IMG/VR virus record: IMGVR_UViG_3300010885_010803
Span: 1-23,683 of that record
Direction: 5' to 3' (one strand)
Origin: a virus
DNA length: 23,683 bases
The stretch's first letter is position 1, and every line of letters starts with the position of its first letter. This document shows, in pieces, positions 2,930-21,639 of this stretch. A program made the translations under genes and the position numbers. The notes under the pieces were generated by a model, which did no database searches, was not told where the DNA came from, and saw nothing but the letters and a program-made list of their open reading frames with translations.

Positions 2930-4090
2930 ATGAGTCGAGCACGCAAGCACGATTACAAAGGCATCGCGGCTCTAGGGCGCGGCGAAGACACCATGCTCGT
3001 GCACATGACCCCGCACGAAGTTCACAGTCTCCAAGCGCTTGCAGAAGCCCACGGCGGTTCCCTCACAATTAATCCTGATACCGGATACCCAGAAGCTGGG
3101 TTTTTTAGCAAACTTTTGCCCATTATCGCGGGCATTGGTATTTCGTTGATCCCCGGGGGAGCGGCGTTCGCCCCAGCGGTTGTTGGACTTGGTAGTGCGG
3201 TCGCTAAAAAAGCATCCGGTGGGACGTGGGGCAACTCGCTTAAAAGCGGCATACTGGGCGCGATAGGCGGATACGGTGGAGCCCAACTTGGAACGGGGCT
3301 AATGGCGGCAGGGGCTAAGGGCGCGGGCGCGGGTTTGGCGGGGGCAAATAGTTTTATAGGGGGGGTTGGGGGGGAAGCGACGGCACAGGGAGCAGCCGAA
3401 GCAGCCGAAGCCGCTGGAGCGGGGTCTTTTGCGGGGAACGCAAGCCAAGCCCTATCCGGGGTAAAAAATCTCTACGGTGCCAAAGATTTCTCTGGGTTCG
3501 TACCGGCCAGTGCAAGCAATTTGCTGAGCGGTGGGCGCGGGCTTGCAATGATGGCAGGTTTGGGGTTGGCCCCGGCATTAGTCGGCGCGGCTACTAAAAA
3601 GCAGCCTAATTCTGCCCCCATCAAGTCGCCATTTGGCCCTTACACGGGACCGTGGACTGCTTCACGGGGCAAGATGAGTCTTCCAGATAGCGACTACTAT
3701 ACTTCTGGATACTCTAACCACAATTATTTTCCAGAGCGGATGGCCTACACCTCCCCCAATGCGCCGACGTTTTATGCGGCGGAGGGCGGGGGTATTGCGA
3801 GCCTACCGGGACCACAAGGCCCCGCCCCCGGGGCTGTAGAGGGCATGTTGTCGGGTCCGGGTGACGGCATGAGTGACTCCATCCCCGCCAATATCGACGG
3901 TAAACAGGAAGCCCGGCTAGCCGATGGCGAGTTTGTTCTCCCGGCGGATGTGGTCTCGCACATTGGCAACGGATCGTCAAAGTCCGGCTCCCAGCGGTTG
4001 TACTCAATGATGGACGCAATTCGGGAAGCAAGAACTGGTAACCCAGCTCAAGGCAAGCAAATTAACCCTGATAAATTCCTACCCGCGTAG
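2930..4090 (+). CDS. Gly/Ala-rich internal virion-like protein with C-terminal ADGEFVLP motif, 386 aa
   Basis: The ATG is preceded by AGGA nine bases upstream. The N-terminus has the pattern DTMLVHMTPHEV...INPDTGYPEAGFF, which recurs in proteins of uncultured tailed phages. Residues 59-94 are strongly hydrophobic (FFSKLLPIIAGIGISLIPGG onward). A long Gly/Ala-rich stretch follows to about residue 215 and could associate with or cross membrane. The C-terminal third carries EGGGIASLPG near 285-294 and ARLADGEFVLPADVVSHIGN from 328, ending in a helical tail (YSMMDAIREARTG). This architecture and its place between tail genes and the giant protein suggest a capsid-internal or DNA-ejection protein. 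No enzyme motif is visible. A tape-measure-like role is less likely because the protein is short. Confidence 0.75.
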   Translation: MSRARKHDYKGIAALGRGEDTMLVHMTPHEVHSLQALAEAHGGSLTINPDTGYPEAGFFSKLLPIIAGIGISLIPGGAAFAPAVVGLGSAVAKKASGGTWGNSLKSGILGAIGGYGGAQLGTGLMAAGAKGAGAGLAGANSFIGGVGGEATAQGAAEAAEAAGAGSFAGNASQALSGVKNLYGAKDFSGFVPASASNLLSGGRGLAMMAGLGLAPALVGAATKKQPNSAPIKSPFGPYTGPWTASRGKMSLPDSDYYTSGYSNHNYFPERMAYTSPNAPTFYAAEGGGIASLPGPQGPAPGAVEGMLSGPGDGMSDSIPANIDGKQEARLADGEFVLPADVVSHIGNGSSKSGSQRLYSMMDAIREARTGNPAQGKQINPDKFLPA

Positions 4091-4130: not shown

Positions 4131-5042
4131 ATGGCTAATTCAATTTACGGGCAACCAGCGGCAGGGGCAAACGGCACCCAGCAAACATCAAGAACCATTG
4201 CCCCCGGCATGGTGCCGCATGTACAAAATATAGCAGACAGAGCGCAAGGCCTGTCAAATCTCCCGTATGAAACATATCCGGGGCCGCGAATAGCGCCATT
4301 TTCCGACGGGGAAACCAACGCACAGACAAACATCGCGGGGATGAAAAACCCGCAGGAGTTTGACGACGCCTACAATACGTATAAACAAAATACGCAGTAC
4401 ACCCCGGGTATGTTCGGTGCTGCCGAAGCCGCGCAGTATATGAATCCGTATACTCACAACGTGACGGACATCGGCATTCGGGATTTAAACGAACAGGCCG
4501 CGCGCAGTATGGCCTTGGCGGGGGTTAACTCTGCGCGTACCGGCGGCTACGGTGGCAGCGGCAACGCGATTATGAACGCCACGACCGCGAGGACGTTAAA
4601 TCGGGACGTGGCAGATCTGTCAACTAAAGGGCAGTACGATGCGTACAATAACGCACAAAACCAATTTAATACGTACCAAGATCAGCTAGAAAACGCGGCA
4701 AACATACGTAATACTTCCGCACAAGGTTTGGCATCGCTGGGATCTACGAAACAAGCCACCGACTTAGAACGGTACGGCGCACAAAATGCTGCGGGCACGG
4801 ACGTCCGAAACATGCAGCAGCGCCAATATGACATGGGCTACGACGAATTCCAAAAACAAATTGAGCATCCGTATAAGGGCCTTTCGTATTATGCCAACCT
4901 TTTTAACGGCATAAACCCTTCTCTGGGAGAATATACAACCCAACAAAACACGACCCCCACGAATACAGCATCGCAGTTGGCAGGACTTGGGCTAGCTGGG
5001 TTTGGTGAGTATAACAAGTACCTTAAGGCGACCAAGGGATGA
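4131..5042 (+). CDS. Putative internal virion / DNA-ejection protein, 303 aa
   Basis: An AGGA-type ribosome binding site precedes the ATG in a 40-base gap that holds no other feature. The protein is rich in Asn, Gln, Ala and Tyr. It begins with a Pro-rich segment (YETYPGPRIAPFSDGE, about 48-63), followed by the MNPYTHNVTDIGIRDLNEQ pattern and a Gly-rich turn (SARTGGYGGSGNAI). A long helical region then runs to about residue 240 (YDAYNNAQNQFNTYQDQLENAANI). This layout is common in a podovirus-associated family that lies next to ADGEFVLP-type proteins, but I cannot name the family. The last codons overlap the next start as ATGA. No signal peptide, membrane helix or catalytic motif is seen. I infer a structural or ejection role from context. 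Confidence 0.7.
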   Translation: MANSIYGQPAAGANGTQQTSRTIAPGMVPHVQNIADRAQGLSNLPYETYPGPRIAPFSDGETNAQTNIAGMKNPQEFDDAYNTYKQNTQYTPGMFGAAEAAQYMNPYTHNVTDIGIRDLNEQAARSMALAGVNSARTGGYGGSGNAIMNATTARTLNRDVADLSTKGQYDAYNNAQNQFNTYQDQLENAANIRNTSAQGLASLGSTKQATDLERYGAQNAAGTDVRNMQQRQYDMGYDEFQKQIEHPYKGLSYYANLFNGINPSLGEYTTQQNTTPTNTASQLAGLGLAGFGEYNKYLKATKG

Positions 5043-7132
5043 GCATTCCAACCTCTGGACCATTTGCGGACCAAAATCTTACCGCTCTATTCCCGAAACT
5101 CATGAAGTTTACGCCACAACAGCTAAGTCAGGTGCAGGGACTTCCGGGTTGGTTTATGGCATCGGTGCTTGGCGCGCAGGCCGATGCCCGTGCGCAAGGG
5201 GCACAACTTACCCCGCCTACCCAGACCGTTGTCCAGCGAGTAATCGATCAAGCGGTAGGTGCGCCGCCTGCGGGCGCTGAGATGCCCGCTCCTCAAGCCC
5301 CGACGCAGATGGCGTCGCACGGTGGGTACATCCACGACTACGGTGTTGCGAGCCTCCCGTACGAGGCCAATTACGGGCACGGCGGGATTGTGTCGTTTTA
5401 TGGCGGGGGGGATACGGATTTAGACAAAGAGTTGCAGAAATACACACCGGAAGAAATGGCGAATATAAGATCAGGCTTAGATGCCTACGCTCTTAATAAA
5501 CGCCGCACACCGGAAGAAATGGCGAATATAAGATCAGGCTTAGCTGACTACGCTCTTAATAAACGCCGCACACCGGAAGAAATGGCGAATATAAGATCAG
5601 GCTTAGCTGACTACGCTAATAAGAAAAAATCTGCGCACAGTGGAGCTCCTATCAAAGTTAGCGCTATTCCGTCGTATAGCTACGGGATGGATATGAGTAC
5701 TGCCGACGCCGCAGCTAAATTCAGTAAATTTGCGCAAGAAAATCCTGCCCAAGCTAAAGCTATAGGAGTTGCAGTGGGCGCAGTTGGCGTAGCCGGAGTG
5801 ACGGCGGCTTTAACTGTCGCAGGTCCGGCGGCGTTGGCGTTGGGCCTCGAGGGATGCGAGGCTCTCGCACCTCATATTGCAAAACTAGGCTATAAAGGAG
5901 TGATGACAGTATTGGCTGGTGGTGGCGGTGGATACTTGGGGTATAGCGCAGCAGATACTGCTGCAACCCCCTTACCTCCCGAGGTTCCCGGGGTTCCCCA
6001 CCACCCGCACAATACCCAGAAACCCGCGTGGGATGTTACGAACTCCGGAACGGGCTGGATGGGGGCGGGAGATCCAAATTCAGCGACTCCCGGTATTTCT
6101 GTTTTCAAAGACCCGTCGATGGACGATTCTGCGGACGCTTCCGCCACGGGCGCAGCACAAAACTTTGGGCTCCCCCCGATTAATTCTGAGATTCCGCCAT
6201 ACCCAGACTTCGTTCCGCAAGAACTACCTCCGAAATACGATGAGATAGAAGAAGCCAAAAAACAAGCCGCCGCAAATGAGCGGTTCCACGTAGATCCGGA
6301 CTACGCCAAAAACGAACTTGCTAAAAACGATGCAAAACTTGCACAAAACGAAGAAGAACGCAAAGGCGTTTATTCAGGGGAAGCACTTTCAAGATTTGGT
6401 ATGGCGTTGGCTAATAATAATTCAGGCCAAGGGCTCCTAACGGGAATAGCTCAAGCAGCACCCAATTACGCCGCTGCGACTGGAGAGGGTAACGAATACG
6501 CCCGTACCCGTGCCGACCTGTTAGATACTCACGGAGAGCTGCTGCGGGGACAGGAACAGGAGAGGAATGTCAACCGCGCCGACGCGGCGTTTGCGGATCA
6601 AAATAAACGCGAAGCTGAAATACGTGTCGCCAAGAATGCCGACATAAATGCAAAACTCCAATACGGTATTAACAAATCGACGACTCAAGCTGAACAACGC
6701 GATAGAATTACGTCACAAATGACAGAAATGGCTAAACTTATAGAATCCGCTAGGCAAAGTAATCAATCTTTATTAGAACTTCAACGAGAACACGATCTAA
6801 CAGCTCAGTCTACTTTACAAACCCTTATAGCAAAAGGGGCAGATTTAGATAAAGTAGAAGCTGGAAAACAAGCAGTAAGTGACAGTAAAAATTTAACATC
6901 TGTTGTTACAAAATTAAACACAGATTTTACTACTTTACTAAAAAGTGGTACAGCCGGAGTTATAGAAGCTGATCGGGAAAATTTTGTTAGTCGGGGGCTT
7001 GCCCGGTATAAAGCGGCACTTGGATCTCAGTTATCGGTAGACAATCAGGGGGCTCCGGGGATTGCTGGACTCCCGGTTAGTTCAGCGTATGCAAACATGA
7101 CCTCCGCAGCTAATTCCGTCGGGAGACCATAA
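5039..7132 (+). CDS. Putative internal virion protein with three 21-residue tandem repeats, 697 aa
   Basis: The start overlaps the previous stop (ATGA), which implies coupled translation. Domains in order: an N-terminal helical segment to about residue 75; a Pro/Ala linker; a Gly-rich stretch with HGGYIHDYGVASLP and HGGIVSFYGGG (94-124) that echoes the GGGIASLPG motif two genes upstream; three copies of TPEEMANIRSGL(AD/DA)YA (136-198); two hydrophobic Ala/Val/Gly segments (about 238-272 and 286-306); a Pro-rich acidic linker; and a long charged helical region (about 395-650) likely to form coiled coil. The hydrophobic-plus-coiled-coil layout fits proteins that leave the capsid with the DNA, but that is inference. 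The A+T content rises toward the 3' end. No enzyme motif was recognised. Confidence 0.75.
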   Translation: MSIPTSGPFADQNLTALFPKLMKFTPQQLSQVQGLPGWFMASVLGAQADARAQGAQLTPPTQTVVQRVIDQAVGAPPAGAEMPAPQAPTQMASHGGYIHDYGVASLPYEANYGHGGIVSFYGGGDTDLDKELQKYTPEEMANIRSGLDAYALNKRRTPEEMANIRSGLADYALNKRRTPEEMANIRSGLADYANKKKSAHSGAPIKVSAIPSYSYGMDMSTADAAAKFSKFAQENPAQAKAIGVAVGAVGVAGVTAALTVAGPAALALGLEGCEALAPHIAKLGYKGVMTVLAGGGGGYLGYSAADTAATPLPPEVPGVPHHPHNTQKPAWDVTNSGTGWMGAGDPNSATPGISVFKDPSMDDSADASATGAAQNFGLPPINSEIPPYPDFVPQELPPKYDEIEEAKKQAAANERFHVDPDYAKNELAKNDAKLAQNEEERKGVYSGEALSRFGMALANNNSGQGLLTGIAQAAPNYAAATGEGNEYARTRADLLDTHGELLRGQEQERNVNRADAAFADQNKREAEIRVAKNADINAKLQYGINKSTTQAEQRDRITSQMTEMAKLIESARQSNQSLLELQREHDLTAQSTLQTLIAKGADLDKVEAGKQAVSDSKNLTSVVTKLNTDFTTLLKSGTAGVIEADRENFVSRGLARYKAALGSQLSVDNQGAPGIAGLPVSSAYANMTSAANSVGRP
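5444..5632 (+). repeat. Three in-frame 63-bp tandem repeats
   Basis: Copies begin at 5444, 5507 and 5570, each opening with ACACCGGAAGAAATGGCG. The first and second differ by two bases (GATGCC versus GCTGAC), which swaps Asp-Ala for Ala-Asp. The third has lost the CTT codon near its end and diverges into Lys codons. The near identity at DNA level points to recent duplication by slippage or recombination. Each copy encodes 21 residues that are probably helical. Confidence 0.95.
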
Positions 7133-10100
7133 ATGTTAGCCACGCTACGAAATAAAGCCGGGGATGTGGTTGCTCAGCTAGAGGTTCCAGAGGGGGCTAG
7201 TAAATACGATATTTTAAATCAGTATTATCAAAGCCAAATTCCTGCGGCACCCGCTGCGCCCGCTGCGCCCACCGAGACCCCCGGGTTAATGAGTACCGCG
7301 CTGTCCGGGTTTAGTCGTGGCATGTCGCAGACAGGTATATTGGCTTTTAATGTAGTCCCCGCCATGATTGCGGACGCTATGGGGCGTAAAGACGTAGCGG
7401 AAACCAAGCTAAAAGCTGCTGCTGACGCGCAAGCGGAATTAGAGCGCACGAATCCTCACCAAGTACAGTCGTACAAAGATGTAAATTTTAGTAATTTTGG
7501 GCGGTACGGAGCCGAGCGATTGGGCGAAGGTCTAGCCTCTATGGTGCCATCCCTCGTTACGGGTGGTGTGGGGGCCAAGTTAGGGGCTATGGCGGCGGGA
7601 AGATACGCGGCAACCCGTGCGGCGGCGCTTATAGGCCCTTCCCTCCCCGGGGCAGCAGCACTGCAAGTAGCCAAAGCCGGAGCCTCTGGGGCCGCTACGG
7701 GGGCGCTAGCGGGGGCATTTACGGGATCGTACGCCCAGAATTTGCCAGAGGTGTACCAGAACATCTACACCGCCACGGGAAAAACCGCGCTTGGCGCGGC
7801 GGCGGTCACTTCCGTTTTGAGTGCCGCGCTTGACTCCATCATTCCCGCAAAAATTCTTTCCGCGCCGGTTAAGCGCGAAGTCATTAAAAAATTAATGCTT
7901 ACGTCGGGCACTTCGCCGGGGTTCATCAAGACTGTGCTCAAGCACGCGGGTCTAGATGCTGGGATTGAGGGATTAACGGAAGGCGCGCAAGAAGCGCTAA
8001 GCATCACCGCCGAACGAATCAGCGGCGAAAAGAACGGGATGTGGGGGACTCCGGAGTTTGAACGGATCATGGAGTCCAGCCTTAGTGGCGCGCTGCCCGG
8101 GGCGGGCGTTGGGGCGGTAGGCGGTGTACGGCACGGTTTAGAGAATAAAAGCATCCAGCGGGAAATAGCGGACGACAAAACCACAGCAGAAATTACGGCA
8201 AAAGAATCTGCTAGGTCAGCGGCGCTCCCGGCAGAAATCCAAGATCTGGAAGACCAAATCGCGGCCCTACAAGGCCCCGCAGCAACCAGCGCGGTGGATA
8301 AAATTGCGCTTAGAAAAGCAGAAATTGCGCTCGCCGCCGCACAAGCAGAATTCAAACGATTGCAGGTACCGTTCGCGCAACGCGCAGCGCACGACCTCGC
8401 GGAACGTAAACGCATAGACCGGGCAACTCAACAGGCCAAAGACGCCGCAGCGCAGACTAAAGTCGATGAGGAGATTCCCCCGGGAACGTTCGACGCCGTC
8501 CTACAAGAGCTGGTCAAACCACTTCCACGTGGGGAGCAGAAAGCAGCTAAAAATAGAATTTTAAATGGCGTTAAAAACTCTGTTGACATTTCTGGCACTA
8601 AGCTACCAAAAATTACTATGAAGTCCGAGGTGACCCCCGCACATGCGAAACACCTGCGCAATTCGTTAATTGGATTTGATCCACAGGGCACAAGTACGGC
8701 CCATGACACTCTGGGTCAATTCATAAAGATTTTCCTTGGCGAGTCCAATAACGAGGCCGGGGAGGACACGATCGCAACCTACAACCAAACCGTATCTGAC
8801 TTTATAACGCAACAAGCAACACAAGCTGCGGATAAAGCGGAAGCGTCCAGAATAAATGGGCTGAAAAACGATATACGGAAGGACGAGTACCTTGCGTTAG
8901 ACCTTGAGAAAGATCCAGATGCCCGCAAAAAATATTTGGCAAAAGTTAGGGAAAACAACCGTCCTGACTTGGTGTCTCACGCGGCAGTCGCGGACACAAT
9001 AGCTGATGCTACAACATTTGCGGAAACTAATTTTCCGGGGGACACGGACTTCCGCGATGAACTTATTCACAGCAAGTTAGACGAGTTAGACCAAAGTAAT
9101 AAAATATATAAAAACGCGGTAAATAATTCCGCATGGGCTACATCTCAGCGAGCCGCAGCCGCGCGGTTAGCAGCGGACGCCGCCGCAGAGAAAGTAAGAC
9201 TTAAAGCCGCAGCCGATCAGAAAAGAATAGACGATAGAGCCGAAGTCAAAGAAACCAGAGCGAAAAATAAAGCAATAAACGATGCGGAAAGGTTAAGGAA
9301 ACAAACTATACGTGATACAGAAAGAGAGGAAAAAAGCGCAAAAAGAGTTGCGGAAGCTCTTGTAAAAGCACAAAATGCACAAACGACTAAAGACCAAAAT
9401 ATCGCTAACAACCTTCTGCGGATGACACCCGTTGAGGATGTGGTAAATACATATAAAAGACAAGATTCGGACAAAGCTGGCCTGCGGGCTACCTACGGAA
9501 CCGCAGACGGGATATGGAAAACTACGCCATATAAAATCAGTATATTTAACGCCCGAGTAGACGCTCACGAAGCAGCGCTTGCCGATCCAAATACCGACAA
9601 CGCGGAATACCAGTCTTTAATGGCCGCAGCGGAGGCCAATCCCAAAGTTAAACCTCAACTTATAGCAGCCGCGCACGCAACGCCGCACGGTACGGCTATG
9701 GCGGAAACTTTGGCTGGCGTCCGTAATGGAACAATTACCGACCTTCACCCCCTGCTTATGGAGGCCCAACCGGAAGCCTTAGAGAAGTTAACCCGTGCGC
9801 TAGGCCATTCGGTAACTAATCCACTTTCTCCGGCGTTTTTGAACGCTACACGAAAACGGGATGTGGGCCATCTGATAGAGATTGCTCAGGCCAAAAATGA
9901 CCCAGCGGCAATGAAAAAACTACAGGAAACGTACGGTGCACCAAAGGGATCGTCCGAGGAAATTCGTGGGATCGTAGGGAGATTAGTGCCTGCGCCCGCT
10001 GCCGCGCCTGACCCAAACCCGGATGAAGACGCGGATGAAGACGCGCTTACAGAACAGGCGAAAATTGATGTAGACGCTGGGCCTATTGGTGATGCGCTGC

Positions 10101-13100
10101 GCCGCATTGAAAATGGGGATCGGGTTGAAACCAAAGCACAATTGCGCTCTTTTGCAAATAAATTGGTGAAAGACTATGTACTTGACGACATCAGCGACAT
10201 CGAAGCGGCCCTAAGCGACCGTGAAATGCCCGCTGAAGACGTGCTAGACCTTATAAGTGAAACGCTAGACGAGGCTAGAGATACCGCAATAGAAGAGCGC
10301 GTTTCGGAACTGCGATTGGATCGAGCGCCCGCTGCCGCGCCTAAGCCCGCTGCCGCGCCCAAAGCGCCTAAGCCCGCTGCCGCGCCCAAAGCGCCTACGC
10401 AAAAAGAAGTAAATGAGACGCTAAAGAAATCTCACGCGGAGGTTATTGCAGCGCTCCCGGACCTTATCGCTCGGGCAAAAAATGGTGGAGATCCGGCCAC
10501 CGCCAATAAACTGTTTACGTTGTTAGCTTTACTGCCTGAATTTAATCTAACTCCTGACTTTTCGGTAGCAAAAATATACAACGGAGATTTTGTTAAGGGC
10601 GGAGTTGGACTGCTGGAAAGTAATGCCGATGCACAAGCAGCAATGACTGCTAACGATGCGCCACAATTTGTAAAAATATTCAAAGAAGTTAAAAAACAAT
10701 CCGATGCTACGACTACTGATGATTCTGAAGAAACGTCTGAATCTATTTCTGACGATCCCCCCGATGAAGAAACTGGAGCTGCAAAACGCCGTGAAAAATA
10801 TTCTTATGTAAGCGGGGTTAAGAAAATACAAGCCGGGTTAAAACAGCTATCAAATTACCATGAAGGAAGTGGTGGTAACCCTCATACGGCTGAGTCTTTA
10901 GAAAAAGTAGAGCAGTTATCAGCAGCTCTGATGGCTACACACAATCCGTGGTGGACAGACCCAACGGATTCAGATCTTGTACGGCTTGAAATTTTTAACA
11001 GTCTAGACCCAAAAGATTCATTTGCAGATCGATTAGCCACCACAGACCTGACAGCACCAACTAATGGCCCAAAAATTATAGCCGAAATAGGCAAGCTATC
11101 AGCTACGGATAGAGCACGTAAATATTTTAAAGCGTGGGCAAAGTTTACAAACAGCCGGATACGGTACGAAGCAGAAAAAGCAAAGAATACGTATAAAGCC
11201 ATACAGAAGGTTCTGTCCTCCGAGGAAGCTATAAATGTATTAGCCCACGATATTGTGGTTGGGGATAAATACTTAACACTTCCCCGGGTTGGAAAAACTG
11301 CTACTAGCATGGCAATACTAGAGTTATTTACGGAAGGTAAATTGTTTGCCGAAGTAGCGGGATTTATAGACTACAAACTGGGTTTGAGGCAGTCGCTAAG
11401 AAAACAAAACTCCAAAGAAGCCGAGGCCGAACGGGTACAAATATTCAATCCTTCTGTTAAAGAGAACGTTAAATTATTTGTAGAATACCTAAATAGTATC
11501 GGGTATTTTTCTAAACCAAATACATACGGGGACATACCTGCCGTAAGCAGTAAAACTACAAAAGAAACTCCACTAATTAGCTCGAATAATAATATTTTAG
11601 GCGAACAAAAAGAAGCGTATGGAACGGATATTGCAAAAAATGTTAAGTGGTGGAATGAGGGTGAGGGCCTTAATGATACCGACTTATTACGATTTGCTGG
11701 ATTAAGGTATACCGGCGGACAATATGGTGTAGATTATTACAATCTATTGTCGGACGAAGAACAGCAAACTGTACGTGATAAGTTGGCCGATGAACTTTTT
11801 TACTACACCGATATAGACAAATCTACACGGGTAACCGGACTAAAAGCTGATTTAGAAAAAGAAGCCAAAGCGGAAGAAGTATTTACTGACTTCAAAAAAC
11901 AAAAGCCAGTCCAAACAAAAAGAGAACTAGAGGCCGAACGCGAGCTAACAGGGGCGGGTAAAGAAACCCCCGACTTTACTGACTGGGCGGAAACCAGAGA
12001 CGGGTTATTATCCACTATTTCCGAGGGCGAAGAAAAGATAACCGACCTTTTAAAATCCGTGGCTTCTATTATAGATGATAACAAGCCCGAAAATATGTCC
12101 GACGCTGCGGCTAAAATATCTGAAATATACAAAACCATAAACTTAATAACCGCCGCAGCAGATCAGCATGATAACAGCCCGCTATTGCCAAATAACGCTA
12201 AATTAATTTTAGCTGATGTTGAGAAATTAGGTAATGACGTATACAACAAACTTAGACAATTAAAAATATCTAAAGTAACGGCATCTATTTCTTCAGTGGA
12301 TAGTGTCGTAGCCGAAATCCAAGCAATTTTTCGTAACTACAGTTTGTTTGCCCCAGATGGTAGTGGGATTAACGGAAATCCTATGCAGGTACGGGATCAC
12401 TTTGTAGAGGGGGATTTTACGCCAAAAGCAGGCACAGACCCCACTAAAGTTAGAGGTGTATTAATCAAATCGGCTATTGGGCCAGTTAAAATATTGTTGT
12501 ACGCCAACAATATAGCTCCCGGGGATGCCCTGTCTATCGTTATGCACGAAGTGGGGGATCACTACGGCCTTGAACATATTTTAACTACTAAACAATTTAA
12601 TATTTTAGTAGACGCTATAAATGGTTGGGCGGACGAAAATAGTAACACAGTAGAATCTAAACTTGCTCGACAAACTAGAGACCGAGTAAACGACCCTAAA
12701 CGAAACATCCCGGAGAGTAAGAAACCCGGCGAATTACTCGCGTATTTTACTGAATATGCTATAAGCGAATATGGGTACGTCCCCACCGCGATGAAATCGT
12801 CTTCACGGTACGGGCCACTACGTCAATTCCTACAAAAAGTATTTGACGGAATTAATAATTTTATAACCAGATTTTTAACCGGAGACGATGCCGCAACAAC
12901 ACGGGCTAAAAAATTGTACGGGGAAGTCCCGGACACCGCCGCGCAAAAATTAAACGAGTATCAAGCACGAACGATTGCGGAAAAAGCCAAAGCCGCAAAA
13001 GACAACGCGGCTGAAGCCGAACTACGTTACGCCGCCCTACGCAAGGCAGCTTCAACCGCTACGGAAGCAGCGCACGACGCACATATTGCGGCGTTTGGGA

Positions 13101-16100
13101 AAAACGCGGGAAATATAGCTGAGTCTGAAAAAGCATGGAAAAAATATGTGCAAGCGGTTGAGGGTTACAACAAGGCGATTAAGCTAGATTTGCCGATATA
13201 CTCGCTGCTGCTTGCTACTATCTCATTGGACGTACAAAAAGCGTGGAGTAAATTTGCGGAAGCGGCGGAAAGGACAATGGTCCGGGCTCCTAGCAACGTC
13301 AAAATTACGGAGGCTCAACAAAAAGTACGAGTGGCATTAGATAAAGCTACCGCAGCGGTAAAAGAAGAAGCGCGAGGCGAAGGAATTTCCATTCAGAATA
13401 TAGTGGATTTGGCCTATGGTGCCGCACATCAAATTTTAGACCGTACTGGTAGAAAATCTACTTTTGACATTAATAATACTGCGGCGCAAAAAAACCAAAT
13501 ACGGCAAGTGACTGCTCTCATAGCCAATACTTCGCCAGACAAATTGGAGGAATTAGATAGGCTCCGCGCTACCCTTGCACGGCTGACAGCGCCATCCTAT
13601 GCGGAACTTTGGCGCAGAAAACAAGACGCATACGCCGCGTTCCAAGCTAATATGAAATACTGGAAATCCCTACCGACCGATAGTCCGTTTCTAGATAAGT
13701 CTGGTGCCCAGTTTACAGAGCTTCTTGCTGAATACGAGATGGCAAAAACAAACTTATTGGAGTCGTACGGGATAGGTAACTACGCAACCGATATAAGCCC
13801 AATTGAAGAGGACCAGCTAACCGACCAAGAAAAAGAAATAGCCGCCAAAGATCCAGCCGATAGGTCACTTTATCAACTTCGTAGAAAAATTAAACGGAAA
13901 AAAACAGATTCTTCCGACAAGACCAGCGGGACATATGCGCAATTAAAAAACCGAAGGATGGAAGCAGAAAGGCAGCTTTTTGCAAGATTGGGATACGTCG
14001 TGGGAGAAGAAGAAGAATCCCAGACGGGAAGGGCGCTATCCGATAAGAATGCGGCGGCACTGTTGGATTATGATGCCAATCGCACATCCGTCCCTGATGG
14101 CCCGTATAAAAGAGGTAAAACAAGTCAAGACTATTCCCCGGACGACCAAGAGACGATGGAGTCTATCGGCGATACCCTCCGAGCGACACCAGAGTGGGGC
14201 GGGCGGGTTGTTGAAAACGCTAGGAATATTATGTCCTTAGCGCCGTCAAAGTTAGCAGATATGTTTGGGTCGTCTATGACTGTGCTACAGCTTAGGGATA
14301 CCGTATCTGACAAGCCGGAGCTGTATGACTCGTTATTGCGGCTATGGAATACGGTCGGTAATAGTGGCGCACTAGAAGCTAGAATGCGTAAAGAATTAGC
14401 CAAACTGCATACTAGACTAACTAAAAACTACAAAACTCTTACTAAAGCCGAGCAGACAGAATTAAATGAATTGGGTCCGTTGCTGTCTATAAACAGCGTT
14501 AATCCGGACACGAACACTACGCATCCACTGGCTATTAGATTTAATTCTTTATCGGCAATCGCGCAGGATATTTATAGAGAAGTAAGAGAATTTTATAAAG
14601 AAATAGGAGATAAATACCTAGATGTTATAGACATTTTGTTAGACGACGACTCCTCCACGGCGGCTAAACTGCGCGCCCAGTTGATGTCTAAAAGATTACC
14701 AGAATATCTTCCTCTAAATCGCGAAGGGGACTTCTGGGTTCGCTACAAAGTGTACAACGCCGATGGGACTATATCCGCTGACGAATACAAAGAATCAGAC
14801 CTTACCCCCCGAGAAAGAGACCTTACGATTAAGGAGTTGGATAGGTTGACAGGTACCGTCGTGGTACCGGGATCAGTTCACCCGTACATGCTGGCCGACG
14901 CCTTAGAAAAATCAGGGATGTCGAGCACGGAGCCGTTTGCCAAAATATTGGACGCCATGCGGGCTATCAATCCTGAAACCGGCAAAGCAAAAGTGCCGTC
15001 GGACGTCATACAGCAGGTGTACCGGATTTACATGGACACCTTTCCGGCTAAATCCATCCGTAACCAGTTCCGTAAGCGCAGCGGTACTCCCGGATACCAA
15101 AAAGATATGCTGCATGTGCTAACCGTTACAGGGCCTCGACTTATTCGGGGGCTTGTGAATATGGAAAAAACAAAGCAACTGGATGACATATACGACAGCA
15201 TAAACAAATATGCCACAGAAAATGGCGAAATAACGGATGAAAGAACCCGCGTAGTATTGCGGAGTATTGCAAGCAATAAAGAATTTGTCCGTAGTCCGCA
15301 CGTGGGCAGGGCGATGGCAGCGGTTGGACAAATAAGCTATTTCCAATACATCCTAGGCAATATCGGTACTGCGCTCATGAATACCATGACGCTGCCGGTG
15401 ATTGTTCAGGGGGGGCTTGGGGGTGAGTACGGCCACGGCAAAGCCTCCGACGCGATGGCAACCGCTATGCGCATGTGTTTCACCGGTGGTCAAGATGACA
15501 ACACCGAAATGAAAGTAGTGGGGACCAATAAGAGTCTGGGGGATAAAACTTTTTACGGTGACAAAGCCAAAGCCAACCAAGCGTTCCCTCAGAAATTCAT
15601 AGATCTCTTCCACGCTGCGGAAAATGTACAGGTCATAGGGCGATCGGTCGGGCAAGATCTGGCGGTAAAGAAAAATGCCGGTAAGCTGGACGACGCGGCG
15701 GTGTGGCCCACCATAAAAGCGCACCTTGGGTGGGTGTTCCAGAACTCGGAGCGGTTTAATCGTGAAGTGACGCTCTTAGCGTCGTACATGCTGGCAACGG
15801 ATTCTGGCATGTCGCACGAAAATGCTATCCAACGCGCAATTGCAGATACGGAAAAATACAACGGTAGCGCATCCGCAGAACTTGGACCACAGGCGTTCCA
15901 AAAAGGTATAGGCCGCATAATCGGTACCTTCAAACGCTACCCGCTAAATATGATGCACTTGCAGGCCAAATTATTTAAGACGGCATTTAAGGACGCATCA
16001 AGAGAAGTTCAAAATTTAGCCAGAAGTCAGTTAATCTCCACCGTCGTGTTGTCTGGAATGGTGTCCGGCCTAAATGGCGTGCCGTTAATGGGCGCAATAA

Positions 16101-16906
16101 CGTTCTTTATCCATCTCGTTAGTGGTATTTTTGGAGACGACGACGAGCCGCTGGACCCGATAGATGAGATGAACGCCGCGTTATCCCCAATGGTTACCAA
16201 CGGAGTCGTTGGCGCTATGACGGGCATATCTCTCTCCCGCGCCGGGCTGAGTAATTTAGTGTGGAGGGATAACCCCGGTAAAGTGGAGAAGGTTGGGGTG
16301 GTTAGATACGCTATGGAAACGTTGTTAGGACCTATTGCTTCTATCGCATTGGACGTAGAAAAAGCGGCTAATAAATTTAACGAAGGGAAAATAGGAGAAG
16401 CCCTAACTCTTTTAGCCCCAACATTTATGCGAAATATAGCTAAAGGCGTGGGCGCGGGGGTAAATGGCATTAAAAACTCTAGCGGAATTTTATTGTCTGA
16501 TGTAAACGTAGCAGAAGCGTTGATGATGTCAGCGGGTATTACTCCGTTCCGTATACAGCAAATATACGATACTCGCGCGCGTATGTCGGCGGCAGAAAAA
16601 TCCCTGACGAATCGTCGGAAAGCCATCCTTGCTATGTTTGAAGCGGCCCGTAATTCCAAAGACCCTGAGGATTTAGCCGACGCGCGGGAAGCGCAGACTA
16701 ATTGGAACGCTACGCAACGTAAGAATAGCGCAAAAGGAAAGCAGTACGGTAAACCGATTACCGAAGATTCTATTGAAAAATCCCGCAACGCTTTTGGAAC
16801 TAGCCGAGAAAACCAACTCCTTGGCGTTCCGATGGCACGCGGTAAAATTCAGCAGATGAGAGAGTACTACGGTATTAAAAACCCTCCTACCCCAGCCTAC
16901 CCATAA
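7133..16906 (+). CDS. Giant phage polyvalent-type protein with zincin motif and PLxRFG-like region, 3257 aa
   Basis: The ATG directly follows the previous TAA, with GGGAG seven bases upstream. Visible parts in order: a Pro-Ala linker (about 37-46); Gly/Ala-rich hydrophobic segments (about 120-215) and an EGLTEGAQEA pattern near 280; coiled coils (about 345-440 and 670-760); a second Pro-Ala linker (1064-1089); an unrecognised stretch (about 1200-1600); a metallopeptidase-like motif MHEVGDHYGLEH (1804-1815) with a possible third ligand in GELLAYFTE (E1867); Ala-rich helices (about 1910-2100); a PLxRFG-type element reading PLNREGDFWV from 2527 (Phe replaced by Glu); a conserved-looking block to about 2960 containing NSERFNREVTLLASY and FKRYPLNMMHLQ; a hydrophobic segment (2966-3005); and a C-terminus resembling LPD38. 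Such polyvalent proteins are thought to be injected with DNA to act on the host. No N4 RNA polymerase motifs are seen. Confidence 0.85.
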   Translation: MLATLRNKAGDVVAQLEVPEGASKYDILNQYYQSQIPAAPAAPAAPTETPGLMSTALSGFSRGMSQTGILAFNVVPAMIADAMGRKDVAETKLKAAADAQAELERTNPHQVQSYKDVNFSNFGRYGAERLGEGLASMVPSLVTGGVGAKLGAMAAGRYAATRAAALIGPSLPGAAALQVAKAGASGAATGALAGAFTGSYAQNLPEVYQNIYTATGKTALGAAAVTSVLSAALDSIIPAKILSAPVKREVIKKLMLTSGTSPGFIKTVLKHAGLDAGIEGLTEGAQEALSITAERISGEKNGMWGTPEFERIMESSLSGALPGAGVGAVGGVRHGLENKSIQREIADDKTTAEITAKESARSAALPAEIQDLEDQIAALQGPAATSAVDKIALRKAEIALAAAQAEFKRLQVPFAQRAAHDLAERKRIDRATQQAKDAAAQTKVDEEIPPGTFDAVLQELVKPLPRGEQKAAKNRILNGVKNSVDISGTKLPKITMKSEVTPAHAKHLRNSLIGFDPQGTSTAHDTLGQFIKIFLGESNNEAGEDTIATYNQTVSDFITQQATQAADKAEASRINGLKNDIRKDEYLALDLEKDPDARKKYLAKVRENNRPDLVSHAAVADTIADATTFAETNFPGDTDFRDELIHSKLDELDQSNKIYKNAVNNSAWATSQRAAAARLAADAAAEKVRLKAAADQKRIDDRAEVKETRAKNKAINDAERLRKQTIRDTEREEKSAKRVAEALVKAQNAQTTKDQNIANNLLRMTPVEDVVNTYKRQDSDKAGLRATYGTADGIWKTTPYKISIFNARVDAHEAALADPNTDNAEYQSLMAAAEANPKVKPQLIAAAHATPHGTAMAETLAGVRNGTITDLHPLLMEAQPEALEKLTRALGHSVTNPLSPAFLNATRKRDVGHLIEIAQAKNDPAAMKKLQETYGAPKGSSEEIRGIVGRLVPAPAAAPDPNPDEDADEDALTEQAKIDVDAGPIGDALRRIENGDRVETKAQLRSFANKLVKDYVLDDISDIEAALSDREMPAEDVLDLISETLDEARDTAIEERVSELRLDRAPAAAPKPAAAPKAPKPAAAPKAPTQKEVNETLKKSHAEVIAALPDLIARAKNGGDPATANKLFTLLALLPEFNLTPDFSVAKIYNGDFVKGGVGLLESNADAQAAMTANDAPQFVKIFKEVKKQSDATTTDDSEETSESISDDPPDEETGAAKRREKYSYVSGVKKIQAGLKQLSNYHEGSGGNPHTAESLEKVEQLSAALMATHNPWWTDPTDSDLVRLEIFNSLDPKDSFADRLATTDLTAPTNGPKIIAEIGKLSATDRARKYFKAWAKFTNSRIRYEAEKAKNTYKAIQKVLSSEEAINVLAHDIVVGDKYLTLPRVGKTATSMAILELFTEGKLFAEVAGFIDYKLGLRQSLRKQNSKEAEAERVQIFNPSVKENVKLFVEYLNSIGYFSKPNTYGDIPAVSSKTTKETPLISSNNNILGEQKEAYGTDIAKNVKWWNEGEGLNDTDLLRFAGLRYTGGQYGVDYYNLLSDEEQQTVRDKLADELFYYTDIDKSTRVTGLKADLEKEAKAEEVFTDFKKQKPVQTKRELEAERELTGAGKETPDFTDWAETRDGLLSTISEGEEKITDLLKSVASIIDDNKPENMSDAAAKISEIYKTINLITAAADQHDNSPLLPNNAKLILADVEKLGNDVYNKLRQLKISKVTASISSVDSVVAEIQAIFRNYSLFAPDGSGINGNPMQVRDHFVEGDFTPKAGTDPTKVRGVLIKSAIGPVKILLYANNIAPGDALSIVMHEVGDHYGLEHILTTKQFNILVDAINGWADENSNTVESKLARQTRDRVNDPKRNIPESKKPGELLAYFTEYAISEYGYVPTAMKSSSRYGPLRQFLQKVFDGINNFITRFLTGDDAATTRAKKLYGEVPDTAAQKLNEYQARTIAEKAKAAKDNAAEAELRYAALRKAASTATEAAHDAHIAAFGKNAGNIAESEKAWKKYVQAVEGYNKAIKLDLPIYSLLLATISLDVQKAWSKFAEAAERTMVRAPSNVKITEAQQKVRVALDKATAAVKEEARGEGISIQNIVDLAYGAAHQILDRTGRKSTFDINNTAAQKNQIRQVTALIANTSPDKLEELDRLRATLARLTAPSYAELWRRKQDAYAAFQANMKYWKSLPTDSPFLDKSGAQFTELLAEYEMAKTNLLESYGIGNYATDISPIEEDQLTDQEKEIAAKDPADRSLYQLRRKIKRKKTDSSDKTSGTYAQLKNRRMEAERQLFARLGYVVGEEEESQTGRALSDKNAAALLDYDANRTSVPDGPYKRGKTSQDYSPDDQETMESIGDTLRATPEWGGRVVENARNIMSLAPSKLADMFGSSMTVLQLRDTVSDKPELYDSLLRLWNTVGNSGALEARMRKELAKLHTRLTKNYKTLTKAEQTELNELGPLLSINSVNPDTNTTHPLAIRFNSLSAIAQDIYREVREFYKEIGDKYLDVIDILLDDDSSTAAKLRAQLMSKRLPEYLPLNREGDFWVRYKVYNADGTISADEYKESDLTPRERDLTIKELDRLTGTVVVPGSVHPYMLADALEKSGMSSTEPFAKILDAMRAINPETGKAKVPSDVIQQVYRIYMDTFPAKSIRNQFRKRSGTPGYQKDMLHVLTVTGPRLIRGLVNMEKTKQLDDIYDSINKYATENGEITDERTRVVLRSIASNKEFVRSPHVGRAMAAVGQISYFQYILGNIGTALMNTMTLPVIVQGGLGGEYGHGKASDAMATAMRMCFTGGQDDNTEMKVVGTNKSLGDKTFYGDKAKANQAFPQKFIDLFHAAENVQVIGRSVGQDLAVKKNAGKLDDAAVWPTIKAHLGWVFQNSERFNREVTLLASYMLATDSGMSHENAIQRAIADTEKYNGSASAELGPQAFQKGIGRIIGTFKRYPLNMMHLQAKLFKTAFKDASREVQNLARSQLISTVVLSGMVSGLNGVPLMGAITFFIHLVSGIFGDDDEPLDPIDEMNAALSPMVTNGVVGAMTGISLSRAGLSNLVWRDNPGKVEKVGVVRYAMETLLGPIASIALDVEKAANKFNEGKIGEALTLLAPTFMRNIAKGVGAGVNGIKNSSGILLSDVNVAEALMMSAGITPFRIQQIYDTRARMSAAEKSLTNRRKAILAMFEAARNSKDPEDLADAREAQTNWNATQRKNSAKGKQYGKPITEDSIEKSRNAFGTSRENQLLGVPMARGKIQQMREYYGIKNPPTPAYP
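10325..10396 (+). repeat. 27-bp tandem repeat encoding a Pro-Ala-Lys linker
   Basis: Two perfect 27-bp copies (10343-10369 and 10370-10396) follow a partial copy from 10325. They encode KPAAAPKAP repeats within the giant protein. The low-complexity, positively charged linker separates an acidic helical segment from the following domain and probably acts as a flexible spacer. Confidence 0.9.
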
Positions 16907-16940
16907 AAAAAAACCCCACCTCGGTTTCCCGGGGTGGGGT
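16905..16940 (-). terminator. Intrinsic terminator for the leftward (minus-strand) operon
   Basis: ACCCCACC (16913-16920) pairs perfectly with GGTGGGGT (16933-16940). CGG/CCG (16922-16924 with 16929-16931) extends the stem around a four-base loop. Read leftward, the hairpin is followed by nine U residues (complement of A at 16905-16913), the classical Rho-independent form. Read rightward, the sequence after the stem is AAGAACAC with no U tract. It should therefore stop replication-operon transcripts, which end at 17006, just before they run antisense into the giant virion gene. Confidence 0.85.
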
Positions 16941-16970
16941 AAGAACACAGACAATGCGTTGATCGGTGAT

Positions 16971-17005: not shown

Positions 17006-17248
17006 CTATTCCCACCACCCCTTGCGCCGGTAGGTAAAATACAGGGGGCGAACCCGCCACACCCGTATGCCCCGCACAGAATCTTCCACAGCCAACAGAA
17101 TCTTGATGACGTACTTTCGTTTCTCGCACTCCGCGCGCACGACTCTGGTGGCGGTCTCCACATCCAAGCACGGGATAAAAAACGACGCCCCGAAAGTGAA
17201 TTTCCGCCACTTCACGACAAAGTCCAGCGTGTGGATAACCATCCCCAC
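17006..17248 (-). CDS. Small basic phage protein of unknown function, 80 aa (GTG or ATG start)
   Basis: This is the last gene of the leftward block. A GTG start at 17248 shares one base with the primase-helicase TAG stop, and an ATG lies two codons in, at 17242 (78 aa). No strong ribosome binding site is seen, so coupled translation is likely. The sequence FTFGASFFIPCLD, then a helix (TATRVVRAECEKRK), then KILLAVED-x-GIRVWRV fits a compact beta-alpha-beta domain. It resembles a family of short proteins common in tailed phages of environmental bacteria, for which I know no function. The C-terminus is basic and aromatic (YFTYRRKGWWE). Competing frames here on both strands lack family-like features. 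Confidence 0.7.
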   Translation of the reverse strand: MGMVIHTLDFVVKWRKFTFGASFFIPCLDVETATRVVRAECEKRKYVIKILLAVEDSVRGIRVWRVRPLYFTYRRKGWWE

Positions 17249-20070
17249 TACGCGGATACCGTGCTGGGAATCGGGGAGACGTTCACGATCAGAGACTCTG
17301 CCCCAAATACGTCCTCATTGCGGAAGGTAAAGCAGTAGCACTGAACCGCTGGTGCGACCATCTTGGTCCCCCTAGTCAGACGCTTCCTACTCTCACCTTT
17401 GTAAATACCTTTTTTATGTAATATGTTTAATAAGTCTTTAAACACTACTTGTTCTTTAGTGCAATAGCGCTTGAATGTTTTAGAGTCTATGTAGATTAGC
17501 TTTTCGTCCACCTCTATGCGAACCGACAGCTCGTAGCGGGGCTCCAGAAACGGGGCTTCAAACAACCCACTGCGCAAGTCCATCTCGTTGTTCACCACCA
17601 AGGTGGTACCCAGATTAGCGTTTAGAAATTCCCCAAGCACGTCGTCGTACGTAGACACGGTATTAATTACGTCTTTACGCCATTCTGGTATAAGCGACAT
17701 AACTACCCAATTTATTATTTTGTCTATGTCGTATTTTATAAGTCCTAAATCGCAAGCTATGATTCCACCGGTTATGTTAGCCGCGACCACTGCGGAGACG
17801 TATCGCTCCTTGTTGGCTAGCCCCGCCAAAATATCAATTTTCTTCTGAACTTCCAGCATTAGTGCTATGGCGACTTCCTGATTTTTAACCAGCCAATCTA
17901 TGTAAATTGGACCCGCCACCCCATAGTTCTGGTACATGACGCCTTCATATAATTGGTAGGCTTCATTCTTGGTCATCACCCCCGACGGGGGGATGGCGTA
18001 TTCCAGCAACCGCATAACCTCGCCGTTCGCGGTAGATTTTATGGTGCCCAGTTTCTGTATCAGGGACGAATTTGATGAACTTATCACGAGCGTGGACCAG
18101 TGAGTGTCGTTGGTACGTTCCATATTTACCTGCGACTGCATTCTCCCCGCGCCTTCGCCTTGCGTGACCTCGTACGCAAAATTGGATACCGCTGCGGGCA
18201 ACACGTTGGTCATCTCATCCATCGTGAACGCTAAATTATTGTGTAGTCCTAACCGGAACTTTTTGTGCGCCATAGTGTCCGACTCTTTTGACAGCAGCGC
18301 CTCTGGGTGTCCTATTATGCTGTTGACCATTTTCAGAATCGTAGTCTTACCGGTACCAGATTCTGGGTGAAGCAGATTAATCCACGCGCCGTTATAGCCG
18401 GTAAATTTCATCAACGGCGCACCGAACCCCGTCAGCAGCCCGAAGGCGTGCGGTTCAAACCCTACCCGATCGTAGGCGTTAGCCACGCGACTCCATTCGG
18501 TCAGCGTGCCCTTGGGGCGAACATCTTTGGAAAGTCTGGCGGTAATCTCCGACGGGGGGCTGTACTTTATCTCGGTCATCCCAAACTCTTGCGTGCCGAG
18601 AACAAATTTTGTGTTGTCGTCCGCCCACCCGAATTGCGTCCGAAGAACCTCAATGTCTAGTTCAACCTGCTGAGTTTTGGCGCACAGGACTAGGTATTTC
18701 ATTATCCGGTCAATCTGCCCAGCCAACGCGATGATCCCGTGATAGGACAGCAGTTTGCGCAGTTCTTCCTTAGACGACATAGTCGCCAGCGGGATCACAA
18801 ACTCGCGTGGGGCTTCGCGCGGCAGGTGCAGTCTAGCGAGGACAGAATCGCCCCTACCGCCCTCGTGCATCCGCTTGACTAGGTAGAAGTCATGCTCGTA
18901 GACCGGGGTAAACTCCTCATTCTCTATGAGGTATATCCCCCCATTCTTGCCGCGCTTGTAGGGGTCTGGGACGGGGGGTGGGGTGTAATAGCTAGGGGTA
19001 CCCCGGGCAGCGATATGCAAAATAGGGGATGAGCCATCGTCAAATTCGATTTCTTCCCCAAGGGTTATGGGGCTTTTTATCTTCTCCCAGTGCTGGCATT
19101 TCTGGCAGACGTCGGGACGAAGGTGCGCAATCGTGGCGCACAAGTACGGTTTGTCCAGCAGTCCGTCGGCCATCTTCTCCGTTTCCGACCGGCTGTATTG
19201 CGGGTGGTCTTCGGACATGATGTGTATCGCGTCGCCAGCATCGACGCAGTTTGCCGCGATGGATAGCCCGGCCCGCCATAGGGCGTACCCTACCTCGCTC
19301 TGCCGCGCGACGATGAACCCTAACTGCTCGCACCCCGCACTTCTGGTCGTCTTGTCTATGATCAGCGAAAACCGATTGCGGCTATTGGCGCGCAAGGATT
19401 TTTGTAGCGGGGTTAATTCTCTGGATATGTAATCTGGTATTTCTAGCGTATCGGACAACGCATCACTTAGCCCTACCAGAACGCCAAACTCTTGGTAATC
19501 GACTTCTTTACCGTCGAGCAACCACTCCACCATTACCCACGGCGACCGCTTTTTGTTGGATGTCCCCACGGGGCGTAGCAGTCTGGCTTCGTCGGCGGTA
19601 ATCGCCGCGTCGGCCACAAGGCCATAACTCCGGCACGCTACTTTCAGCGCCTCGGCAATTAGCTTCCAATTTTTTCTTGGGGCTGGCGTCGTGTAAAACC
19701 AGTAAACGTGCAGCCCGTTGCCGGAGCTTATTACCGTAGGGACGGGCAGGTTGTACTTCGACACGAATCCTACTAGCGCGTCAATTCCCTGTTCTTGGGT
19801 GGCGTAGAATTTGCCTTCCCCACAATCTATATCTAGGTACGAAGCCCCTATAGATTTTACGTTGCTCTGACTTCTCTCAGTATTATTCTCAAAATTAGAT
19901 ACCGCGTAGTACGCATCGTATTCTGTGTTTTCTAATCTATCTAATTCTTTTACCGCGCTTTCTACGGTTTGATGCCATGTTACCGTAGATGGAAGACCTT
20001 GCTTAATGCCCTGTATTACATGCCAGCTAGTGTCGTCCCATATAGTCCGGAGGAATGTCTGTGTATCCAA
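17248..20070 (-). CDS. Primase-helicase: archaeo-eukaryotic primase domain plus DUF927-like ATPase, 940 aa
   Basis: The N-terminal domain has AEP primase hallmarks: YLDIDCGEGK with metal-binding D80 and D82, SGNGLHVYW (116-124) with the catalytic histidine motif, and ARLLRPVGTSNKK (162-174) with a conserved basic residue. A probable zinc site follows (C311, C322, C325, H327), then a KIKSPITLG segment typical of phage primases. The C-terminal ATPase has Walker A PESGTGKTT (569-577), Walker B LAFTMDEM (613-620, D618/E619) and a sensor-like ISSSNSS (663-669), resembling DUF927 or phage/plasmid replicative helicases. It probably unwinds DNA and makes primers at the phage fork in the cytoplasm. 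The start is TTG, chosen because AGAGGT lies seven bases upstream. It follows the HTH gene after 27 bases. Confidence 0.9.
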   Translation of the reverse strand: MDTQTFLRTIWDDTSWHVIQGIKQGLPSTVTWHQTVESAVKELDRLENTEYDAYYAVSNFENNTERSQSNVKSIGASYLDIDCGEGKFYATQEQGIDALVGFVSKYNLPVPTVISSGNGLHVYWFYTTPAPRKNWKLIAEALKVACRSYGLVADAAITADEARLLRPVGTSNKKRSPWVMVEWLLDGKEVDYQEFGVLVGLSDALSDTLEIPDYISRELTPLQKSLRANSRNRFSLIIDKTTRSAGCEQLGFIVARQSEVGYALWRAGLSIAANCVDAGDAIHIMSEDHPQYSRSETEKMADGLLDKPYLCATIAHLRPDVCQKCQHWEKIKSPITLGEEIEFDDGSSPILHIAARGTPSYYTPPPVPDPYKRGKNGGIYLIENEEFTPVYEHDFYLVKRMHEGGRGDSVLARLHLPREAPREFVIPLATMSSKEELRKLLSYHGIIALAGQIDRIMKYLVLCAKTQQVELDIEVLRTQFGWADDNTKFVLGTQEFGMTEIKYSPPSEITARLSKDVRPKGTLTEWSRVANAYDRVGFEPHAFGLLTGFGAPLMKFTGYNGAWINLLHPESGTGKTTILKMVNSIIGHPEALLSKESDTMAHKKFRLGLHNNLAFTMDEMTNVLPAAVSNFAYEVTQGEGAGRMQSQVNMERTNDTHWSTLVISSSNSSLIQKLGTIKSTANGEVMRLLEYAIPPSGVMTKNEAYQLYEGVMYQNYGVAGPIYIDWLVKNQEVAIALMLEVQKKIDILAGLANKERYVSAVVAANITGGIIACDLGLIKYDIDKIINWVVMSLIPEWRKDVINTVSTYDDVLGEFLNANLGTTLVVNNEMDLRSGLFEAPFLEPRYELSVRIEVDEKLIYIDSKTFKRYCTKEQVVFKDLLNILHKKGIYKGESRKRLTRGTKMVAPAVQCYCFTFRNEDVFGAESLIVNVSPIPSTVSA

Positions 20071-20077
20071 TGCGTAG

Positions 20078-20083
20078 ACCTCT
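20078..20083 (-). promoter_or_regulatory. Ribosome binding site setting the TTG start of the primase-helicase
   Basis: AGAGGT on the minus strand lies seven bases before the TTG at 20070. It sits in an otherwise A-rich 27-base gap after the HTH gene. No in-frame ATG has a comparable site, so this decides the start. Confidence 0.75.
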
Positions 20084-20097
20084 TTTTATTTTTATTT

Positions 20098-20340
20098 TCA
20101 CACGCCCCCTATGTGCAAAAGTTTTTCTATTTTTTCTATGTATTTTTTCCTCGGGGTGGAAGTGCCCACCATCCATTTGTAGATAGTCATGCGCGACACT
20201 CCAAAGTAGTCCGTTACTTCCGCCACGGGTATGTCCCGACTTATCATGTACTTGCCCAGAAGAATGCCGGGGCTATCGGATTTACCAGCCGCAATCGCGT
20301 TGGCTTCCACAATTCTGTTGCTATAGCCCCGGCAGTCCAT
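20098..20340 (-). CDS. Small helix-turn-helix DNA-binding protein, 80 aa
   Basis: The ATG overlaps the upstream gene's TAA by one base (TAATG), so translation is coupled. Residues about 37-58 form a helix-turn-helix: IPVAEVTDYFGVSRMTIYKWM, with the turn at FGVS and the recognition helix SRMTIYKWMVG. The rest is a Lys-rich helix (RKKYIEKIEKLL). The fold could belong to a Cro/XRE-like regulator or a small replication-associated DNA-binding protein. No dimerisation or enzymatic domain is visible. Its position between an SSB-like candidate and the primase-helicase suggests either autoregulation of the replication block or help in loading the replication machinery. Both are inference. Confidence 0.75.
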   Translation of the reverse strand: MDCRGYSNRIVEANAIAAGKSDSPGILLGKYMISRDIPVAEVTDYFGVSRMTIYKWMVGTSTPRKKYIEKIEKLLHIGGV

Positions 20341-21185: not shown

Positions 21186-21206
21186 TTCTATATGTCCTTT
21201 AATGTA

Positions 21207-21632
21207 CTATTTTCTACGTACGGTGATGGCGAATTGCCGGATAACTTCAAGCCCAGCGGGGTAAATGCTGGGATTTTCTTCTAAAAACTGCTTTATGTTG
21301 GTCTGGTGCACGCGCCGTTCCAACAGGTCGAATACATTATGTTCTCTTATCAGGTTATACATAGCGTCCCAGTTTGTGGTCCAGTACCTGCTCTTAATAC
21401 TCCTGATGGCTGTCCCGGAAGCAGTACGGATGCTATCCGCCCCTAACGCTTCACACTGCGCTAGGATTTCTGCCTCTATGATGTCCATCTTGTCCGACAC
21501 CACTTTCGTGTCGGCGTCGGCGATTTCTTTGATAAGAACTTTCTGGTCCCTAAGAGCGATGTAGCGGGCCACCAACTCGTCTGTGGAATTCAATGTCTCA
21601 GTCACTTTTGCGTCCTCTTGCTTAGGGCTCAA
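21207..21632 (-). CDS. Helical phage protein of unknown function, 141 aa (TTG start)
   Basis: The start is TTG at 21632, with GAGG seven bases upstream. The N-terminal half is probably two long helices (ELVARYIALRDQKVLIKEIAD and VSDKMDIIEAEILAQCEAL). Then comes ADSIRTASGTAIRSIKSRYW, a pattern typical of a widespread phage family in which a beta hairpin follows the helices. The C-terminal part reads DAMYNLIREHNVFDLLERRVHQTNIKQFLEE. No catalytic residues are evident. Proteins of this layout often lie beside SSB or recombination genes in phages, so a role in replication or recombination is plausible but unshown. It is separated from the helicase by 59 bases and from the next gene by 21. Confidence 0.7.
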   Translation of the reverse strand: MSPKQEDAKVTETLNSTDELVARYIALRDQKVLIKEIADADTKVVSDKMDIIEAEILAQCEALGADSIRTASGTAIRSIKSRYWTTNWDAMYNLIREHNVFDLLERRVHQTNIKQFLEENPSIYPAGLEVIRQFAITVRRK

Positions 21633-21639
21633 TGTTGCG

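Follow-up and report, generated by a model that had tools for sequence, protein, structure and literature searches.

A 3257-residue PLxRFG polyvalent-type protein with a predicted zincin-like metallopeptidase domain as candidate ejected internal virion protein of a tailed phage

The giant gene and its neighbourhood

The window, i.e. the whole stretch of DNA that was analysed, is an entire IMG/VR record of 23,683 bases and represents a metagenomic phage contig. A single ORF with an ATG start occupies positions 7133-16906 of the plus strand and encodes a PLxRFG polyvalent-type protein of 3257 residues, with exactly the coordinates given in a preliminary description of this DNA. GGGAG is located just 5' of this ORF, and its ATG abuts the stop codon of the gene encoding a 697-aa protein. 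The genes and features discussed below are:

2930..4090 (+), 386-aa protein rich in Gly/Ala that completes the syntenic module
4131..5042 (+), 303-aa protein of a DNA ejection protein family
5039..7132 (+), 697-aa protein directly upstream of the giant gene, candidate ejection protein
7133..16906 (+), giant gene, 3257 residues
7274..8182 (+), conserved N-terminal domain (NTD), Gly/Ala-rich, candidate membrane/ejection domain, residues 48-350
7787..7843 (+), most hydrophobic segment of the NTD, residues 219-237
7967..7993 (+), EGLTEGAQE motif, residues 279-287
8183..12400 (+), unmatched middle, payload or linker, residues 351-1756
12401..12775 (+), zincin-like metallopeptidase domain, residues 1757-1881
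12545..12562 (+), HEVGDH (HExxxH) with H1805, E1806 and H1810
12731..12733 (+), Glu1867, predicted third zinc ligand on the second helix
12776..14689 (+), unmatched stretch, residues 1882-2519
14690..16777 (+), PLxRFG C-terminal domain (CTD), residues 2520-3215
14711..14728 (+), PLNREG, the PLxRFG signature with F replaced by E

Along the giant gene the GC content is 56% at the gene start and 48% at the gene end, but drops to 41% in the stretch at about 11-13 kb of the window. This low-GC stretch (positions 11001-13000, 41% vs 47-56% mostly elsewhere) takes in the zincin-like domain and some of the unmatched middle.

Three internal-virion-like proteins had been proposed to precede the giant. 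One of them, the 303-aa protein, indeed matches the DNA ejection protein family PHROG 4287 (E 1.8e-12), while the 386-aa and 697-aa proteins belong to no named family and are assigned to the module by gene order. Of 41 loci that extend at least 5 kb upstream of the giant, 31 have a gene of the 303-aa family no more than 2.8 kb away from it, accompanied by the 386-aa gene in 30 and by the 697-aa gene as well in 21. Thus, the family match and the synteny bear out a neighbourhood of ejection type. The giant gene lies near late virion genes, as is characteristic of polyvalent proteins, with the ejection gene upstream and, on the contig of a related giant (L017), head and tail genes farther on. The portal profiles PF12236 and PF16510 gave no match in the contigs of relatives, the search with PF12236 having had no working control.

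Near residue 140 of the 697-aa protein the sequence TPEEMANIRSGLxxYALNKRR is repeated in tandem, in three almost identical copies. At positions 16904-16945, between the convergent gene sets, there is a strong inverted repeat (CCCCACC...GGTGGGG) with a run of A on its left side; read on the minus strand, this run would supply the T tract of a terminator for the genes encoded there. A replication-type module with a 940-aa primase/helicase-like protein, an HTH protein, an SNF2-like helicase and an HNH protein is encoded on the minus strand (17248-23604) and is retained in 55-74 of the PLxRFG loci that were fetched. It includes a 141-aa protein (21207-21632, minus strand) with relatives in 73 loci. 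Despite its location in a replication module this protein matches a PHROG named 'minor head protein' (PHROG 13900, E 6.6e-21), and the name may be wrong.

Domains of the giant protein

The PLxRFG-like character of the C-terminus, expected from the preliminary description, is confirmed by the NCBIfam profile for the PLxRFG domain, NF032893, which matches residues 2525-3205 with 295.3 bits (E 9.7e-88, profile positions 3-655 of 681) and thus exceeds its curated cut-off of 100 bits. The string PLNREGDFWV is present at residue 2527 as described; the signature keeps P, L, R and G, and these four residues are invariant in an end-to-end alignment with eight reference giants of the PEp14/LASTA/PBC5 type. 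Searching with the C-terminus by tblastn matched 67 phage records, and relatives are encoded by at least 524 stretches of IMG/VR and 48 of GTDB genomes. Compared with the contig L002, which shares 80% protein identity over the common C-terminal part, dN is 0.127 and dS 0.718, and third codon positions hold most of the differences, indicating that at least the C-terminal part is under purifying selection as a protein. The AlphaFold2 model of the CTD (pLDDT 81) is mostly helical. It matches the C-terminal parts of many predictions annotated as 'large polyvalent protein' (E 1e-27) and, more weakly, two proteins of Roseobacter phages, CRP-4/5, that are annotated as 'internal virion protein D' (E 2e-6, 3.5e-7); no solved structure in the PDB gave a useful match, from which novelty of the fold does not follow.

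The NTD, residues 48-350, is conserved in about 40 giants. Its EGLTEGAQE motif aligns to the EEGVQ region of the virion RNA polymerase (vRNAP) of phage N4, and within the pattern ExxTExxQ (residues 279-286) E279, T282, E283 and Q286 are invariant in 20 sequences. When used as a slice, the NTD hits the virion structural protein family PHROG 6958 (E 9.4e-14), a match that a PHROG scan with the whole protein had missed. Of the 20 members of the NTD alignment, 12 hit the virion RNA polymerase family PHROG 2206, with a best E of 2.3e-7. Profile-profile alignment (hhalign) with five N4-like vRNAPs gave scores of 50.6 for the NTD and 58.4 for the zincin-like domain, with 30 block-shuffled controls reaching at most 23.9 and 23.4, respectively. 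As a plain hmmsearch of the NTD profile finds nothing in the same five proteins, we regard the relation of the NTD to N4 vRNAP, suggested by profile methods, as moderate. The N4 NTD is believed to cross the membrane and, together with gp51, to constitute the portion of the ejectosome in the inner membrane (PMC12633501). Hydrophobic, membrane-active segments had been ascribed to the giant, and hydrophobic segments do exist; since their peaks are modest (Kyte-Doolittle means of 1.72 at residue 219 and 1.79 at residue 2983, 19-residue window), membrane activity is a possibility.

The preliminary description also pointed to HEVGDH-YGLEH at residues 1805-1815. The string is present, but its metzincin-like reading (HExxHxxGxxH) fails, as Asp occupies position 5, that of the second His, and His1815 (position 11) lacks conservation among relatives. 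Instead, the motif is HExxxH, with Glu1867 as predicted third zinc ligand. H1805, E1806, H1810 and E1867 are invariant across 44 aligned relatives sharing 13-28% identity with the window protein, the active-site motif having the form HExxxH in 41 of them and HExxH in three, and HExxxH combined with a Glu on the next helix is the hallmark of HEXXXH-type zincin-like metallopeptidases. Taken alone, such a motif says little, because HExxH and HExxxH each arise in about 3-4% of shuffled sequences; its significance comes from homology. The zincin region matches another giant in a phmmer search (E 3e-20), iteration leads to 86 domain matches, and about 70 other giants contain domains homologous to residues 1757-1881. 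These relatives were reached solely through the C-terminal alignment, scans of viral contigs with the zincin slice alone finding no relative.

In the AlphaFold2 model of this domain (pLDDT 84, core above 90) three strands (62-65, 86-89 and 97-101, slice numbering) are followed by the HExxxH helix (110-127) and the Glu helix (172-191), i.e. a three-stranded sheet with flanking helices, so that the zincin fold proposed around residues 1805-1867 is recovered with its expected three-strand, two-helix core. Its best neighbours in the PDB are mostly zincins (lethal-factor, PPEP, MATCAP and 3e11 structures) with Z-scores of 5.9 or less, and the E-values in Foldseek exceed 0.4. That anthrax lethal factor structures are among the fold matches reflects the common zincin-type fold and has no bearing on function. 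PPEP-2, which matches with a Z-score of 4.3, has likewise been reported as structural match of the zincin in an N4-like vRNAP from Pectobacterium (PMC8472413). Taken together, homology and the model support a zincin domain in the giant protein, and the metallopeptidase is probably active, judging from its residues. Activity is not guaranteed, as N4 vRNAP carries a zincin and yet is packaged uncut (PMC5512222). Giants from Acinetobacter genomes (L103, L114, L117, L119 and L134) contain two tandem zincin domains, both with HExxxH.

All 24 ORFs that hold the three blocks have them in the order NTD, zincin, CTD, with total lengths ranging from 1,641 to 4,844 residues. For two segments of the window protein, residues 351-1756 and 1882-2519 (together about 2,040 residues, 63%), no homologue could be detected in phage records, the fetched giants, Pfam or PHROGs. 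Specifically, tblastn of residues 1-2399 against phages gave no match, scans of viral contigs with residues 1190-1699 no relative, and a search of PDB sequences with residues 1140-1739 no homologue; designed helical proteins and TraC, which appeared in the PDB sequence searches, were taken as matches of helix composition. A Pfam scan of the whole protein yielded nothing at E-values up to 1, and no Pfam LPD match exceeded the cut-off of 27 (best LPD39 with 11.9 bits, E 0.17). Neither a methylase nor a helicase nor a second enzyme was found in the whole protein or in slices of it (Pfam, PHROG), nor was an effector domain discernible across about 2,000 residues. Polyvalent proteins unite at least two domains of disparate activity in a single chain (Iyer et al. 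2017); in the giant the zincin is the one predicted enzyme, next to the N- and C-terminal virion-type domains. The giant protein is ordinary in kind with an unusually divergent payload. Among PLxRFG giants it is the middle that varies, which makes injected cargo a reasonable guess for it.

Possible roles in the virion and during infection

H66_0060, gene 60 of phage H66, is a PLxRFG relative with its own HExxH. In GenBank it is annotated as 'structural protein' with the note 'verified by mass spectrometry as part ...', the wording for a nearby gene being 'as part of the virion', and this annotation is the sole direct virion evidence found for a homologue. The DarB-like gp69 of phage JC1 was detected in virions with 51 unique peptides (PMC9144972), but was set aside as evidence from a homologue, as tblastn tallies with two PLxRFG queries named no Burkholderia phage.

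The identity of the domains, their conserved order, the invariant active-site residues, the gene neighbourhood and the virion annotation of the relative were all obtained by computation; packaging of the giant, its ejection, its membrane insertion, and catalysis and its target are what we infer. The chassis, with a membrane-type NTD, a zinc-protease domain and a packaging-type CTD, is of a known kind, which phages probably bring along in the particle and pass into the host together with their DNA. We consider it likely that the giant is a virion-packaged, ejected PLxRFG polyvalent internal virion protein of a tailed phage with a predicted metallopeptidase. During assembly the C-terminal PLxRFG domain would hold the protein in the particle. 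Upon infection the giant would exit the head via the DNA path after the smaller ejection proteins encoded upstream, its NTD would engage the inner membrane, and the HExxxH zincin, with its complete set of catalytic residues, may cut the chain or a host protein, a cut in the chain most likely freeing the segment of residues 351-1756. Such a mechanism gains plausibility from the analogous N4 vRNAP, which is known to enter the host by ejection and in which the N-terminal part serves injection and the C-terminal part encapsidation, with a zincin between them (PMC8472413; PMC5512222). For the CTD a packaging role is suggested by analogy only, as profile comparison of the N4 CTD with the CTD of the giant is not significant (score 28.8, control maximum 24.8). 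Host takeover by the giant, as envisaged in the preliminary description, can only be inferred because the two unmatched segments have no detectable homologue.

Alternatively, the zincin could be a maturation protease that cuts the giant at head assembly, before or in the virion, so that only fragments would be ejected. Precedent is provided by DdrB from phage P1, which is cut to 76 kDa prior to packaging (PMC5512222), and both the intact catalytic residues and the very long chain would fit. We nevertheless find this rather doubtful, as N4 vRNAP, the closest architecture, escapes cleavage despite its zincin (PMC5512222) and the sequence contains no recognisable cleavage site. It is unlikely, too, that the giant is a purely mechanical ejection component like gp16 of phage T7 that keeps the zincin only as a structural module: the ejection-type neighbourhood, the resemblance of the C-terminal model to internal virion protein D and the lack of a recognisable effector domain would agree with such a role, but invariance of H, E, H and E across 44 sequences of such low identity is what a catalytic site predicts, and relatives bear methylase/helicase annotations. 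The C-terminus further matches PHROG 10089, DarB-like antirestriction (E 4.1e-45), and many relatives bear that name, which might suggest an anti-restriction protein shielding the incoming DNA. This match is restricted to the common C-terminal domain, and neither the adenine methylase nor the SWI2/SNF2 helicase of such proteins was found (Pfam, PHROG), making a DarB-like function improbable. Finally, that the giant is a divergent N4-type vRNAP is highly improbable, for despite the related NTD and zincin and the similar gene order, the scores of residues 340-1760 and 1880-2520 against N4-like vRNAPs lie in about the same low range as those of reversed controls, giving no clear signal for a single-subunit RNA polymerase domain.

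Comparison with known systems

The giant resembles proteins of several known groups. In the PLxRFG giants of F116/H66, PEp14, LASTA, PBC5 and related phages the CTD is likewise present over most or all of its length, the zincin precedes it by several hundred residues, and the genes follow ejection- or tail-type genes. Many of these giants carry methylase/helicase annotations, whereas the middle of the window giant has no recognisable enzyme; moreover, the window giant has PLNREG in place of PLxRFG, and HExxxH where several of them have HExxH. Giants from IMG/VR (L016, L060, L072, L017 and others) exhibit the same three blocks in the same order, the same upstream module and downstream replication genes, but are often 1600-2050 residues long, the window giant being about 1,200 residues longer, mostly in the middle. 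As to the peptidase, HEXXXH zincins have already been described in polyvalent proteins (Iyer et al. 2017; PMC5512222), with HExxxH, three strands and a Glu on the second helix as here, a comparable layout by description. The CTD has moderate similarity in predicted structure to internal virion protein D of the T7 type, via the Roseobacter CRP-4/5 proteins so annotated; there is no sequence match, and no transglycosylase was found in the window giant.

N4 vRNAP (gp50) shares with the window giant a related NTD and zincin in the same order and is encoded by a giant gene that closes a series of ejection genes, the series gp52-gp51-gp50 being comparable to the upstream genes and the giant in the window. 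It differs in its RNA polymerase domain, none being detected in the window giant, and the CTDs are not significantly related. New in our analysis are the conservation of residues 48-350 and their relation to N4 by profiles, the block order found in 24 of 24 ORFs and the synteny of ejection genes in 31 loci. We tentatively suggest that PLxRFG giants and N4-type vRNAPs might share one ancestral ejection chassis, consisting of a membrane NTD, a zincin and a helical packaging C-terminus, that takes unrelated payloads, the 1,400-residue middle then being an undescribed kind of payload released by the HExxxH peptidase, a possibility that we regard as less likely than not. If the idea of a common chassis were true, the N- and C-terminal blocks would be markers for ejected giants in any phage genome, and the sequence between them could be read as candidate injected cargo.
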